Shown piece after piece: positions 18,545 through 25,692 of a DNA stretch of 64,000 bases. The stretch is from Actinopolyspora alba (GTDB lineage: Bacteria > Actinomycetota > Actinomycetes > Mycobacteriales > Pseudonocardiaceae), in NCBI RefSeq assembly GCF_900112765.1, contig NZ_FOMZ01000004.1, forward strand, positions 173,446-237,445. The letters are read 5' to 3'. Numbering within the stretch: position 1 is the first letter of the stretch; each line of letters opens with the position of its first letter. Both the position numbers and the translations under genes were made by a program. The notes under the pieces were generated by a model, which did not search any database, was not told where the DNA came from, and saw nothing but the letters and a program-made list of their open reading frames with translations.

Positions 18545-18653
18545 GCGGGTGGCGGAGCCTCTCGCACGGCTCTCGCCGCGGGTGCCCCGACATCGGGTAG
18601 CGACCTACACGACGTCGGGGCCGTCCTCGCGAGAGCCGCACGCGAGAACCCGC
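18545..18653 (+). repeat. B-family nested hairpin, copy 3 (best-formed)
   Basis: Successive pairs are GCGGGT/ACCCGC (18545, 18648), TCTCGC/GCGAGA, CGGCTCTCGC/GCGAGAGCCG (18567, 18629), CCCCGAC/GTCGGGG (18585, 18614), and an apex GTAGCGACCTAC (18597-18608) that can itself pair. The whole 109 bp would fold as one long interrupted stem in RNA or cruciform DNA. Confidence 0.75.
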
Positions 18654-18710
18654 TGCGGCGCCGATGGCGAGAACGGTCGGAGCGCGGCCCGTGCCGTCCC
18701 ACAGCCCGGC

Positions 18711-18861
18711 GATTTCGTGGGAAATCGACGGCCGCCCCAAGCCGGACCGCCGTACGCACCGGGGCCCTTGCCCAGTGGCGCGGCGATTTCGCGAGAAATT
18801 GCCGCCAACTGGGGCCGCACCGGGGCACCGGGGTACCGGGGCGTCAATTTCGCGAGAAATT
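18711..18861. repeat. C-family palindromes, copies 5 to 7
   Basis: GATTTCGTGGGAAATC at 18711-18726, GATTTCGCGAGAAATT at 18785-18800 and AATTTCGCGAGAAATT at 18846-18861. The arms co-vary (GATTTC/GAAATC, AATTTC/GAAATT) so pairing is kept. Spacing is about 61-74 bp. Confidence 0.75.
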
Positions 18862-18880
18862 GCCGCCCCCGCACCGCTTG

Positions 18881-19966
18881 TCAAGTGGCAGCGGCTACTG
18901 ATTCCTGTCTGATGGTGTCCATCCGGGCGTAGACGTTGTCGCCGGGGCAGGCGGTCTCGCCGACGTCGCGGTGGGTGAAAATCCTGGGCAACGTGACCGA
19001 GGTGCCCTCGGGATACTTGTTCCCCTTGCCTCCCCCGGAAACCAGCGTGGTCTGCCCCAGCGGATCACGGCCGACGGTGCCGAGCTTCCAGCCCGCGATC
19101 CGTCCGGTCGAACGCAGCGCGCTCTCGGTCGGATAGGCGGTCTCGAAGTTGCCGATCAGCGCCACCCCGAAGGTCTGACCGTTGAATCCCTTGGTGTGGC
19201 CACCCACGACGTGGCGTCGCAGTCCGTCGGTACGTCCGGCGAAGATCGTGCCGCACTTGTCCACCAGCGCGTGGTAGCCGATGTCGCCCCACCCGAGTTC
19301 CACGGCGTGGTAGTGATACAGCCCCCGGACCACCTCGGCGGAGCGCGCGCAGGTGTAGTCGTTCGTCTCCACGGTGTGATGCACGATCGCCGCCCGCGTG
19401 GTGGCCGAGTACTCCGGTGGCCAGCGCATCAGGCTCTCGTCGGCGCCCCACTCCGCTCGGGTCACCACCGGCGGCCGTGCGCTCCGCCGCTCGATTTCCG
19501 AACGCACCGGCTCCGTGCCCGGCGTGATCGCGATCAGTTCCAGCTCCCCGGTCACGTACTCGCCCGCCCGAACCGCGCGTATCCGGATGCGGGAGCTCGG
19601 CCCGGTCCACCAGGCACCGCTCGCGCCCGCCGCGCCGGACACATCGGTGCCGCCGTGTCCGGAGGAGCCCAGCGGCGACAGCTCGTGCCAGGAGCTCCAG
19701 CGCCCGTCCTGCCGGTACTGTGCCGCTGTTCGGTCCGGGGCTCTCCCGTCCCAGGTGACAGCGACCATGCTGAACCGCTTTCGGGTCCGCACCGTGCGTA
19801 CGCCCGGTGAGCTCCGTGTTCCCGGTGCATCGGACAGCGATCGGTGCACCGCCGTGGTTTCCCCGCGAGTCGGACTCGATCGTTCCGTGGTCGAACCGGC
19901 TGCGCCGGTGGTCAGCAGTGTGGTCGTGGCCAGTGCGATGGTTCCGACGATTAAGCCGCGGAGCAT
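18881..19966 (-). CDS. Secreted peptidoglycan-recognition-type N-acetylmuramoyl-L-alanine amidase
   Basis: A 361-residue protein with a signal peptide (residues 1-23), a beta-rich middle (about 60-145, WDGRAPDRTAAQYRQ) and a C-terminal PGRP/amidase_2 domain (about 165-350). Zinc ligands are visible in AIVHHTVETNDY and FTHRDVGETACPG; YHALVDKCGTIFAGR is the conserved core. It would cut the stem peptide from glycan outside the cell. Two cysteines in the amidase domain may pair. The gene is divergent from glf, as in mycobacteria. Confidence 0.9.
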   Translation of the reverse strand: MLRGLIVGTIALATTTLLTTGAAGSTTERSSPTRGETTAVHRSLSDAPGTRSSPGVRTVRTRKRFSMVAVTWDGRAPDRTAAQYRQDGRWSSWHELSPLGSSGHGGTDVSGAAGASGAWWTGPSSRIRIRAVRAGEYVTGELELIAITPGTEPVRSEIERRSARPPVVTRAEWGADESLMRWPPEYSATTRAAIVHHTVETNDYTCARSAEVVRGLYHYHAVELGWGDIGYHALVDKCGTIFAGRTDGLRRHVVGGHTKGFNGQTFGVALIGNFETAYPTESALRSTGRIAGWKLGTVGRDPLGQTTLVSGGGKGNKYPEGTSVTLPRIFTHRDVGETACPGDNVYARMDTIRQESVAAAT

Positions 19967-20160
19967 AGGTCGCCTCGCTCACATTGCCGGGAGCCCCGGA
20001 GGGTGGTTTTCGATGTGAGTTGTTCACACCTTCGCGGGGCAGTATGCGACCCGATAACTTCACGCGCCCGTCGAAGCCTCGTTATCCGAAACCACGATCG
20101 CGAAACCGACACGATCAGTCGCTGATGGCACGCGGTTTCGGCACCCGATCGGTCTAACGC

Positions 20161-24123: not shown

Positions 24124-25372
24124 CAGGAACGAGGTCGATTCACGGTCCCAGGAGGAGAGCACTCCGGGAACCAACGACGGACAGCGGTCCGAACGGTCGG
24201 CGACGACCCCCGCTTCCGGTGGCGGCGTCGACACCGCCACCACCGAATGGGAAGCCGAGGCCGAACGTGACGCCGAGCCCTCGGCCGCCGAGGTGGACTC
24301 CGCGGATACCGAGGAGGCCGTGCGGGACGACTCCGAAGGACTGATCGGCTCGGAGGCGGGCGGTGAGGCCGGTGCGTTGGAGGACCGGTTCATCGGAGAC
24401 ACGGCGACCACGGACTCGGGCGGGGCAACGACCGCCCCGGGATCGCACCAGGACAAGTCCTCGGATACCTACCACGCGAGGGTGATCGCCGCCGCGGGAA
24501 CTCCGACCGGGCTGGTCAACGGACTGCTCAAGGAGCTGCGGCCGAAACAGTGGGTCAAGAACATCCTGGTGCTGGCCGCACCGTTCAGCGCGGGCGAGCT
24601 GTGGGCGGTTCCGACCCTGCTCGACGCGGCCGTGGCCTTCGTGGTCTTCTCGATGGCCGCTTCGGGGATCTACTTCATCAACGACGCTCTCGACGTCGAG
24701 TCCGACCGGGCGCACCCGACCAAGCGAAACCGGCCGATCGCGGCGGGGTTGATTCCGCTGCCGGTGGCCTACGCGGTGTGCGGGTTGTTGCTCGTCGGCT
24801 CGCTGGTCATATCCGGCCTGATGAGCATGGGGCTGTTGGCGGTGATGGCCGTCTACGTCGCCGTGCAGCTCGGCTACTGCTTCGGACTCAAGCACCAGCC
24901 GGTGATCGACCTGTGCATAGTGGCCTCCGGCTTCCTGCTGCGCGCGGTGGCGGGCGGCGCCGCCGCCGGGCTGGAGATCACCCAGTGGTTCTACATCGTG
25001 GTCGCTTTCGGTTCGCTGTTCATGGTGGCGGGCAAGCGCTACGCGGAGGTCAAGCTCGCCAACGAGACCGGAGCCAAGATCCGCAAGTCGCTGCGGGCCT
25101 ACTCCGCCTCGTACCTGCGGTTCGTCTGGGCCATCTCGGCCGCGATCATGATCATGTCCTACAGCCTGTGGGCCTACGACATCCGGCAGGAGGACAACTC
25201 GATCTGGGGAGTGGTGTCGATCATTCCCTTCGTGATCGGCATCCTGCGCTACGCGGTGGACGTGGACAAGGGCGTGGCCGGTGAGCCGGAGGAAGTGGCC
25301 CTCAAGGACAAGGTGCTGCTGGTACTGTTCGGCATACTCGCCTGGTGTCTCTTCCTCGCCTTCTACCTCTGA
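24116..25372 (+). CDS. ubiA: Decaprenyl-phosphate phosphoribosyltransferase (UbiA family)
   Basis: A 418-residue UbiA-superfamily membrane enzyme that attaches 5-phosphoribose to decaprenyl phosphate, the first step to the arabinan donor DPA. Residues 1-130 are very acidic and disordered; the enzyme core begins KELRPKQWVKNILVLAAPF and has the prenyl-diphosphate motif NDALDVESDRAHPTKRNRP (about residue 200) and further helices up to the C-terminus. The mycobacterial enzyme is about 300 residues, so the tail is an added feature. Start GTG 24116 overlaps the PAP2 gene. Confidence 0.92.
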   Translation: MSDRNEVDSRSQEESTPGTNDGQRSERSATTPASGGGVDTATTEWEAEAERDAEPSAAEVDSADTEEAVRDDSEGLIGSEAGGEAGALEDRFIGDTATTDSGGATTAPGSHQDKSSDTYHARVIAAAGTPTGLVNGLLKELRPKQWVKNILVLAAPFSAGELWAVPTLLDAAVAFVVFSMAASGIYFINDALDVESDRAHPTKRNRPIAAGLIPLPVAYAVCGLLLVGSLVISGLMSMGLLAVMAVYVAVQLGYCFGLKHQPVIDLCIVASGFLLRAVAGGAAAGLEITQWFYIVVAFGSLFMVAGKRYAEVKLANETGAKIRKSLRAYSASYLRFVWAISAAIMIMSYSLWAYDIRQEDNSIWGVVSIIPFVIGILRYAVDVDKGVAGEPEEVALKDKVLLVLFGILAWCLFLAFYL

Positions 25373-25402
25373 GAATCACTCTGGGAGTTGCGTGTCTGGT
25401 CG

Positions 25403-25512
25403 GTTAGCCGGCACGTGAGTCGGCGCCTTGCGGCGTTGGGCCGGCTCTTGAGCAGCGACCTACGCGGCGAGCGGCCCGGCCTCGCAATGCATCCGACTCA
25501 CGCACCGGAGAC
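25403..25512 (+). repeat. A-family structured repeat, copy 2
   Basis: Differs from copy 1 (5131-5240) at only a few bases. It contains GTGAGTCGG and CCGACTCAC ends and the AGCGACCTACGCGGCG apex region. Confidence 0.75.
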
Positions 25513-25579
25513 ACGCGCGCTGCTCACGTGGGAAGACGAGTGGTGCGGCCTCGCGACTCGGCTGCCGTAGTTGGTTTCG

Positions 25580-25692
25580 TGGCGGAACCTCGCCGCACGG
25601 CTCTCGCTGCGGGGCCGGCGACATCGGGTAGCGACCTACACAACGTCTCCGGCGTCCTCGCGAGAACCGCACGCGAGAACCCGCTGCGGCGC
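25580..25692 (+). repeat. B-family nested hairpin, copy 4
   Basis: Same layout as copy 3, with the inner stem changed from CCCCGAC/GTCGGGG to GCCGGCGAC/GTCTCCGGC; the loop GTAGCGACCTAC is unchanged. An outer GCGAGAACCCGCTGCGGCGCC tail is shared. Confidence 0.7.

Follow-up and report, generated by a model that had tools for sequence, protein, structure and literature searches.

What are the nested hairpins of about 100 nt that recur between genes in a 64,000-nt stretch of the Actinopolyspora alba genome (contig NZ_FOMZ01000004.1, positions 173,446 to 237,445; the whole stretch is called the window below), and why do they stand where they do? The original prediction had sorted them into two families, A and B, with different arms and a common apex, had noted that they cluster with a third palindrome, C, and had suggested a non-autonomous mobile unit or a structured RNA class. 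We find that A and B are two branches of one modular "gene-tail" hairpin family, which has a covarying structure, a preferred position and orientation behind genes, co-orientation with replication in two genera, modular turnover, and a patchy spread in one bacterial family. Its units combine a leader of ~25 nt and a nested hairpin of ~100 nt, whose internal loops are conserved while its stems change freely; several genera add a second, small hairpin. The family is real and, as far as the scope of our literature search shows, unnamed, and we infer for it both a function and mobility; the suggestion of a mobile unit or structured RNA is thus partly supported, with covariation, turnover between congeners and uneven copy numbers fitting it.

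Covariance models were built from 35 copies of B (R1) and 30 copies of A (R2). For the covariation analysis of B, 50 copies were wanted, 37 were cut out by regular expression and 32 were aligned, the five left out including two A. mortivallis copies. In this 32-copy alignment, which covers seven other genera, four helices with 33 pairs are paired in 91.8% of cells, compared with 34-48% when the partners are slid along the sequence. Both sides have changed in 23 of the 33 pairs (186 doubly changed cells); none of 500 shuffles reached the real alignment in four of five measures, and one reached it in the fifth. Covariation is weaker in A, where the copies have diverged little and 8 of 34 pairs are doubly changed. 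It is therefore present in both branches, and the possibility that it would vanish once more copies were aligned can be set aside. Taken singly, copies have only a moderate folding advantage over shuffles (z -2.5 and -1.8), and it is thus the covariation, not the energy, that proves the structure. What stays largely constant in B is GGAACCT ... GAACC, on either side of the outer stem, and the internal loop GGGAT / CTGTCCTC. Behind the core, 19 of 26 copies from genomes of other genera (G005, G012 and G014) carry a second small hairpin, AGCGGC...GCCGC. In samples of 200 kb from each of G012 and G013 there is no instance of the stricter motif AAGCGGC..GCCGCTT, a result that speaks against a genome-wide terminator and suggests that the second hairpin belongs to the unit.

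The change of inner stem that had been described in B is real, since the GCCGGCGAC/GTCTCCGGC form retains all pairs except one, and hybrid stems occur. The common apex of A and B holds within the genus and in some other genera but not family-wide: the apical arms of B take the states GTAG/CTAC, GTAT/ATAC, GAAT/ATTC, GACC/GGTC and others, and the apex loop also varies between genera (GTATCACGCATAC, GAATGTCCAATTC and others). Because the arms vary in this way, the apex that A and B have in common is one of several states that a pairing arm takes. In the A. alba genome the exact apex GTAGCGACCTAC has 63 copies, compared with 0 for a reversed-sequence control, and the flanks of all 63 resolve into an A consensus, a B consensus, and a small number of chimeric or half elements, several with their break at the apex. 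In the window the exact apex stands at 5180, 18597, 25628 and 44449 (minus strand), with a one-mismatch form at 25452; in the B copies that start at 755 and 44259 the arms are still GTAG/CTAC but enclose a 3-nt loop. The apex alone, searched in the window with up to two mismatches, is not above chance (7 matches against a shuffled mean of 3.9; 10 of 100 shuffles reach 7).

Genes were called with a crude GC-frame gene caller, by which the gene upstream is co-oriented for 81 of the 95 B matches that have context; 57 of these 81 start 20-45 nt behind the co-oriented stop, where uniform placement in the same gaps would give 13.9 (3 of the 96 B matches are the second strand of an already counted place). 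The median distance from stop to model start is 31 nt in the own genus, 34 nt in G013, 32 nt in G012, 31 nt in G014 and 32 nt in G005, medians that rest on 65 copies with a co-oriented stop within 150 nt and, for G012, G005 and G014, on the best-scoring loci rather than on randomly drawn ones. A second set of 20 copies came from further genera; 13 of them have 30-45 nt between the stop and GGAACC, a point ~9 nt inside the core, the exceptions lying at -8, 15, 18 (three gatB copies), 443 and 1016 nt. When the apex copies of the A. alba genome are considered, 43 of 59 have a co-oriented upstream gene. A regulon was rejected: no homology between genera was found among the 65 upstream proteins, the second set of 20 yielded one cross-genus pair (29% identical), and a Pfam scan of 30 upstream proteins returned mixed functions.

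All copies of A and B that had been listed for the window were recovered by covariance models and pattern matches, and the order A-B-C at 25.4 kb, mirrored at 44.2 kb, was confirmed. The features are as follows, the window's genome being G000 and its compared congeners G067, G063, G038, G062, G061 and G066:

755..873, minus strand: diverged B with a 3-nt apex loop (R1, 99.4 bits)
5042..5119, plus strand: left-half fragment of B (R1 match 5062-5119), directly behind the stop ending at 5035
5122..5245, plus strand: A (R2, 150 bits), behind the left-half B fragment
17697-18509, plus strand: gene of a HAD-family hydrolase, stop ending at 18509, the host gene upstream of the next copy
18544..18664, plus strand: full copy of B (R1, 120.7 bits), starting 35 nt behind the stop
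18597..18608, plus strand: apical GTAG-CGAC-CTAC hairpin of this B, whose homologous arms pair in other genera
18786..18860, plus strand: two C palindromes, behind B
25394..25517, plus strand: A (R2, 142 bits), adjoining the stop that ends at 25372; present in G067, absent from G063, which keeps B
25574..25695, plus strand: full copy of B (R1, 120.1 bits), distal to A; also in the G067 and G063 orthologues
25782..25868, plus strand: two C palindromes with the core ATTTCGCGAGAAAT, behind A-B
44259..44367, minus strand: partial B (R1, 51.4 bits), distal to the next copy
44395..44519, minus strand: A (R2, 135.6 bits), behind the stop of the minus-strand gene 44542-45327

The C palindromes, searched with the core ATTTCKCGMGAAAT, have 13 matches in the window at one mismatch or fewer and 0 in shuffles. 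They stand at 647, 5294, 5348, 18786, 18847, 25782, 25855, 33935, 44198, 56045 and other positions, several of them paired 50-75 bp apart and some behind A/B units. A small hairpin module, TTCGGCG...CGCCGAA, replaces the left half of A in several copies (L101, L102, L104, L105 and L013 at 1476), and extra sequence was seen inside elements, in the apex (L315:1470-1680) or in the 5' arm (L320:1440-1700).

The covariance-model search beyond the genus, which had been proposed as a check, found B hairpins in 36 of the 150 family genomes sampled, spread over 13 of 46 genera (E <= 1e-7). In a set of 41 relatives, 14 genomes had R1 matches at E <= 1e-5, none of them among the 16 that belong to the order's other families; R2 matched 13, one of them by a weak match outside the family. 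Match counts per genome are lower bounds, with at most 24, 88 or 150 candidates scored in each: at least 87 R1 matches in each of nine of ten genomes of the own genus, at least 142 in G013, at least 44 in G012, at least 14 (at 13 places) in G005, at least 7 in G014 and at least 150 in G141. In the congener G066 there are three R1 matches at two places, with one place matched on both strands. A pattern for B run on a named collection gave at least 81 stretches, all from Actinopolyspora among the matches listed, which may exclude the genome of the window itself.

Comparison of sites in close relatives showed that one gene end can carry A in one congener, B in another and neither in a third. Behind gene 17697-18509, four genomes (G000, G067, G038 and G062) have B and G061 has A; G063 has a short stretch resembling the leader, and in G066 both A and B are missing. 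Behind gene 24023-25372, G000 and G067 have A-B, G063 has B without the gene-proximal A, G062 has a B variant and G061 a diverged stretch, while neither A nor B was seen by eye in G038 and G066. The site of A at 44395..44519 carries a partial B instead in G038, G062 and G061 (congener alignment), and at another pair of sites an A and a C palindrome lie between the gene and B in G000, where A. righensis has B adjoining the gene. Since the congeners differ in the gene-proximal unit, units come or go next to the gene; this turnover, together with match numbers that range within one genus from two places to at least 87, fits a dispersing unit.

Constraint on a unit once in place is suggested by gatB (Pfam GatB_N, GatB_Yqey), behind which four of the five matching genomes of genus g34 have an orthologous copy; the fifth, G154, has three copies, none of them behind gatB. 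The GatB proteins of g34 are 93.8-96.5% identical. In the four gatB copies the 23-nt apical segment and the 3' internal-loop strand CTGTCCTCGC are identical, the 5' internal-loop strand differs in one (L307), the stem of another (L309) has lost pairs, the stems differ with several paired changes, and the sequence beyond the element cannot be aligned. Loop identity of this kind is hard to explain for a dead repeat, repeated re-insertion at a favoured site being the alternative.

The units are also oriented with respect to replication. With the terminus taken as opposite dnaA (best dnaA match: 1310 in G013, 751 in G012 and 667 in G014) and ten sampled 20-kb stretches each in G013 and G012 as gene control, 111 of 142 copies in G013 run from origin to terminus, compared with 99 of 181 genes (55%; binomial p 5e-9), and 41 of 44 in G012, compared with 98 of 157 genes (62%; binomial p 3e-6); by eye, 6 of 7 copies in G014 do so. 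In G067, an orientation switch was read from the copies near 3.65 Mb before the position of dnaA (3.594 Mb) was known, and 21 of 24 A copies agree with the fork (best 24 of 43 matches). The best-fitting arc in G141 orients 100 of 146 copies, the arc being fitted to the copies with the origin not located. The A and B copies listed for G067 are denser in the half around the origin, possibly since the list is one of best matches. High expression was judged unlikely as the cause of the fork bias from the Pfam names of the 30 upstream proteins. A KOPS-like role of the G-rich leader was rejected, GGGTGG being unskewed in 200 kb of G012 (108 vs 107); in G013 it is moderately skewed (132 vs 85, rank 32 of 2238), and it counts against the rejection that the most skewed 6-mers of the G013 sample, GGTGGT, GTGGTG, GGTGGG and GTGGGT, resemble the leader, so that in G013 the leader could have such a role.

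The reading we tentatively favor, as quite possible, takes the units for modular, non-autonomous repeats that spread to the 3' ends of genes and are retained there as structures of the transcript end. Machinery encoded elsewhere would copy the unit, ~180-200 bp in length, to these sites, where it would be transcribed as an mRNA tail and may serve as a transcript-end structure by termination, exonuclease block or read-through barrier. The fork bias might arise because a long hairpin would be better tolerated with the stronger folding strand off the lagging-strand template. Several observations weigh against this proposal. The spacing has exceptions, as in three of the four copies behind gatB, which have 18 nt rather than ~40 from stop to GGAACC, and 16 of 59 apex copies in the A. 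alba genome have an opposite-strand gene upstream. Among 37 copies with a co-oriented downstream gene, 6 end less than 50 nt before that gene. Of the features of an intrinsic terminator, a hairpin behind the stop in gene orientation is present, but TTTT within 12 nt behind the second hairpin was found in 0 of 19 copies, so that there is no U-run. The fork bias, strong in two genera, is weaker for B in Actinopolyspora (24 of 36 in G067, p 0.07; best 36 of 88 matches). No R1 match lies near the gatB of G013 at 3.805 Mb, the nearest being at 3.789 and 3.828 Mb, and gatB was accordingly rejected as the primary home of the unit. To these is added a substitution pattern in one stem, which is taken up below with the question of the folding strand.

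Much of the same evidence could be accommodated by purely selfish non-autonomous mobile DNA, of the type of a miniature inverted-repeat transposable element (MITE) or REP and without host function, whose transposase would prefer gene 3' ends, for example terminator hairpins that are single-stranded at forks. The high and uneven copy number, the modular stacking with a gene-proximal unit present in one species and missing in another, the fork orientation bias and the mixed host genes are all consistent with it. We nevertheless consider it somewhat unlikely, as no target duplication was seen in the sites compared and the identical gatB loops of four species are unexpected for a dead copy unless it was re-inserted. 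Furthermore, the Y1 transposase (PF01797), the one transposase family searched, was found in 11 of 24 genomes without tracking copy number, and gave no match in G013 (142 R1 matches), G061, G038 and G014, all of which have many or several copies. Because Y1 is missing from copy-rich genomes, a RAYT/IS200 mobiliser is rejected as the simple answer.

A more novel reading, which we regard as unlikely, is a lineage-specific gene-end system in which a dedicated trans-acting factor would read the conserved loops as a portable 3'-end signal, and coupled copying would plant the hairpins at a set distance behind the stops of fork-codirectional genes. If true, genes would have a form of punctuation that is both mobile and replication-polar.

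A different question is which strand folds. Of the two strands, the minus strand has the lower RNA energy in 87 of 96 matches for B and in 45 of 57 for A; the strand-energy difference of random 105-mers has a standard deviation of 6.8 kcal/mol, and only the consistency of the bias therefore counts. In stem P2, read on the gene strand, isolated A.C exceeds G.T by 50 to 16 unique-within-group events (199 distinct copies), a pattern that points to the opposite strand, not the mRNA, as the one that folds. The functional strand could accordingly be the one opposite the gene, either as an RNA running towards the stop codon (an antisense guard) or as an attC-like single-stranded DNA site, with the bottom strand folded, behind a stop codon and on the leading-strand template. 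We consider this quite improbable. With DNA parameters the bias of B shrinks: it holds in 75 of 96 matches and averages 1.6 kcal/mol. The A.C excess is missing from P3, P4 and the conserved T.G pairs of A, on whose plus strand two T.G pairs are nearly fixed. In the 32-copy cross-genus alignment the unique A.C and G.T events are 11 to 9, in incomplete agreement with the P2 set. NucS, an actinobacterial mismatch nuclease, prefers G-T over A-C (PMC8228993; this and the other articles are cited from excerpts) and could give the same A.C excess. We regard a minus-strand preference as likely for P2 and unproven overall.

An attC site carries R boxes, RYYYAAC ... GTTRRRY, at its ends; these are absent in 96 of 96 matches, and an integron attC was rejected. 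The units resemble attC as imperfect hairpins behind the stop in gene orientation, with conserved structure and free stem sequence, but no cassette array was seen and the host genes compared in congeners are resident, syntenic chromosomal genes rather than cassettes. The likeness extends to the fork polarity of the minus strand, most copies in G012 and G013 having it placed as are the bottom strands of sedentary integron attC sites, on the leading-strand template (PMC5371416).

That the units are chromosomal single-strand origin (sso)-like initiation sites on the lagging-strand template, in which GTAGCGACCTAC would be a loop of the CS-6 type, is extremely improbable: ssoA of rolling-circle plasmids is a large, orientation-dependent single-strand hairpin with a TAGCG-containing loop (PMC4598088, PMC5703833), and the apex TAGCGA resembles CS-6 TAGCGT (PMC4598088), but the apex loop is not conserved between genera as CS-6 is, the units are chromosomal, multicopy and near stop codons with no plasmid match, and a fixed stop-codon spacing is not predicted.

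The comparison with known insertion sequence (IS) and MITE ends consisted of Rfam, phages, plasmids and the presence of Y1, with no IS library included. At the Rfam gathering score A and B are unmatched and the window gives tRNAs only, the A-B junction drawing only far-below-threshold miRNA models; phages and plasmids gave no match to the A-B stretch of the window, and plasmids none to a B copy of G012. In REP/RAYT systems a GTAG-type tetranucleotide sits at the foot of a short hairpin; here GTAG is in the apical stem and is GTAT or GAAT elsewhere, so that this feature is not shared. Like REP/BIME elements with RAYT, the units are intergenic palindromes in many copies, often near gene 3' ends; unlike them, they are nested hairpins of ~100 nt with stems that covary over genera, are mostly in sense orientation at a preferred spacing of 31-34 nt, and lack Y1 in several copy-rich genomes. 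Pneumococcal BOX and enterobacterial ERIC are likewise modular, structured and intergenic, with tens to hundreds of copies, a likeness of organization in which sequence relation was not compared; we know of no stop-codon spacing or fork polarity in either. E. coli REPs are reported within 15 nt of the stop codon (PMC12306157, RepRanger). Uptake sequences of Neisseria and Pasteurellaceae have been co-opted as hairpin terminators behind genes (PMC1852404) and are thus also repeats that form hairpins there, but they are motifs of ~9-11 nt, compared with ~100 nt here, where the loops are conserved and T runs are missing. The resemblance of one stem variant to the 16S 3' end, seen by eye, was dropped as chance.

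The literature search, whose scope lay outside subscription journals and supplements, found no title or abstract start naming this hairpin family; related articles deal with hairpin clusters (PMC8355165) and with the transcriptome (PMC3610266) and small RNAs (PMC3827479) of S. erythraea. Intergenic palindromic repeats are already known, and it is the stop-codon spacing, the fork polarity and the loop constraint that set this family apart from them. Occupation of the same spot behind unrelated genes, paired rewriting of stems with the loops kept, and fork polarity are together unexpected from any single known process, and they offer a testable case for how bacteria acquire transcript ends. With dozens of natural copies per genome in cultivable actinomycetes the family is experimentally accessible, and the R1 and R2 models with the anatomy given above allow it to be annotated.

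Lastly, two further features of the window were observed. Beside the A/B units of the convergent gene, the plus-strand gene 42454-44013 is followed by a conventional terminator-like hairpin and then TTTCCGTT (window 44013-44200), which is kept in G067, G063 and G062 and replaced by TTTCGGTC in G038. At 48462-48621 a nine-base tandem repeat, apparently rich in proline and glutamate codons, lies inside an open frame.

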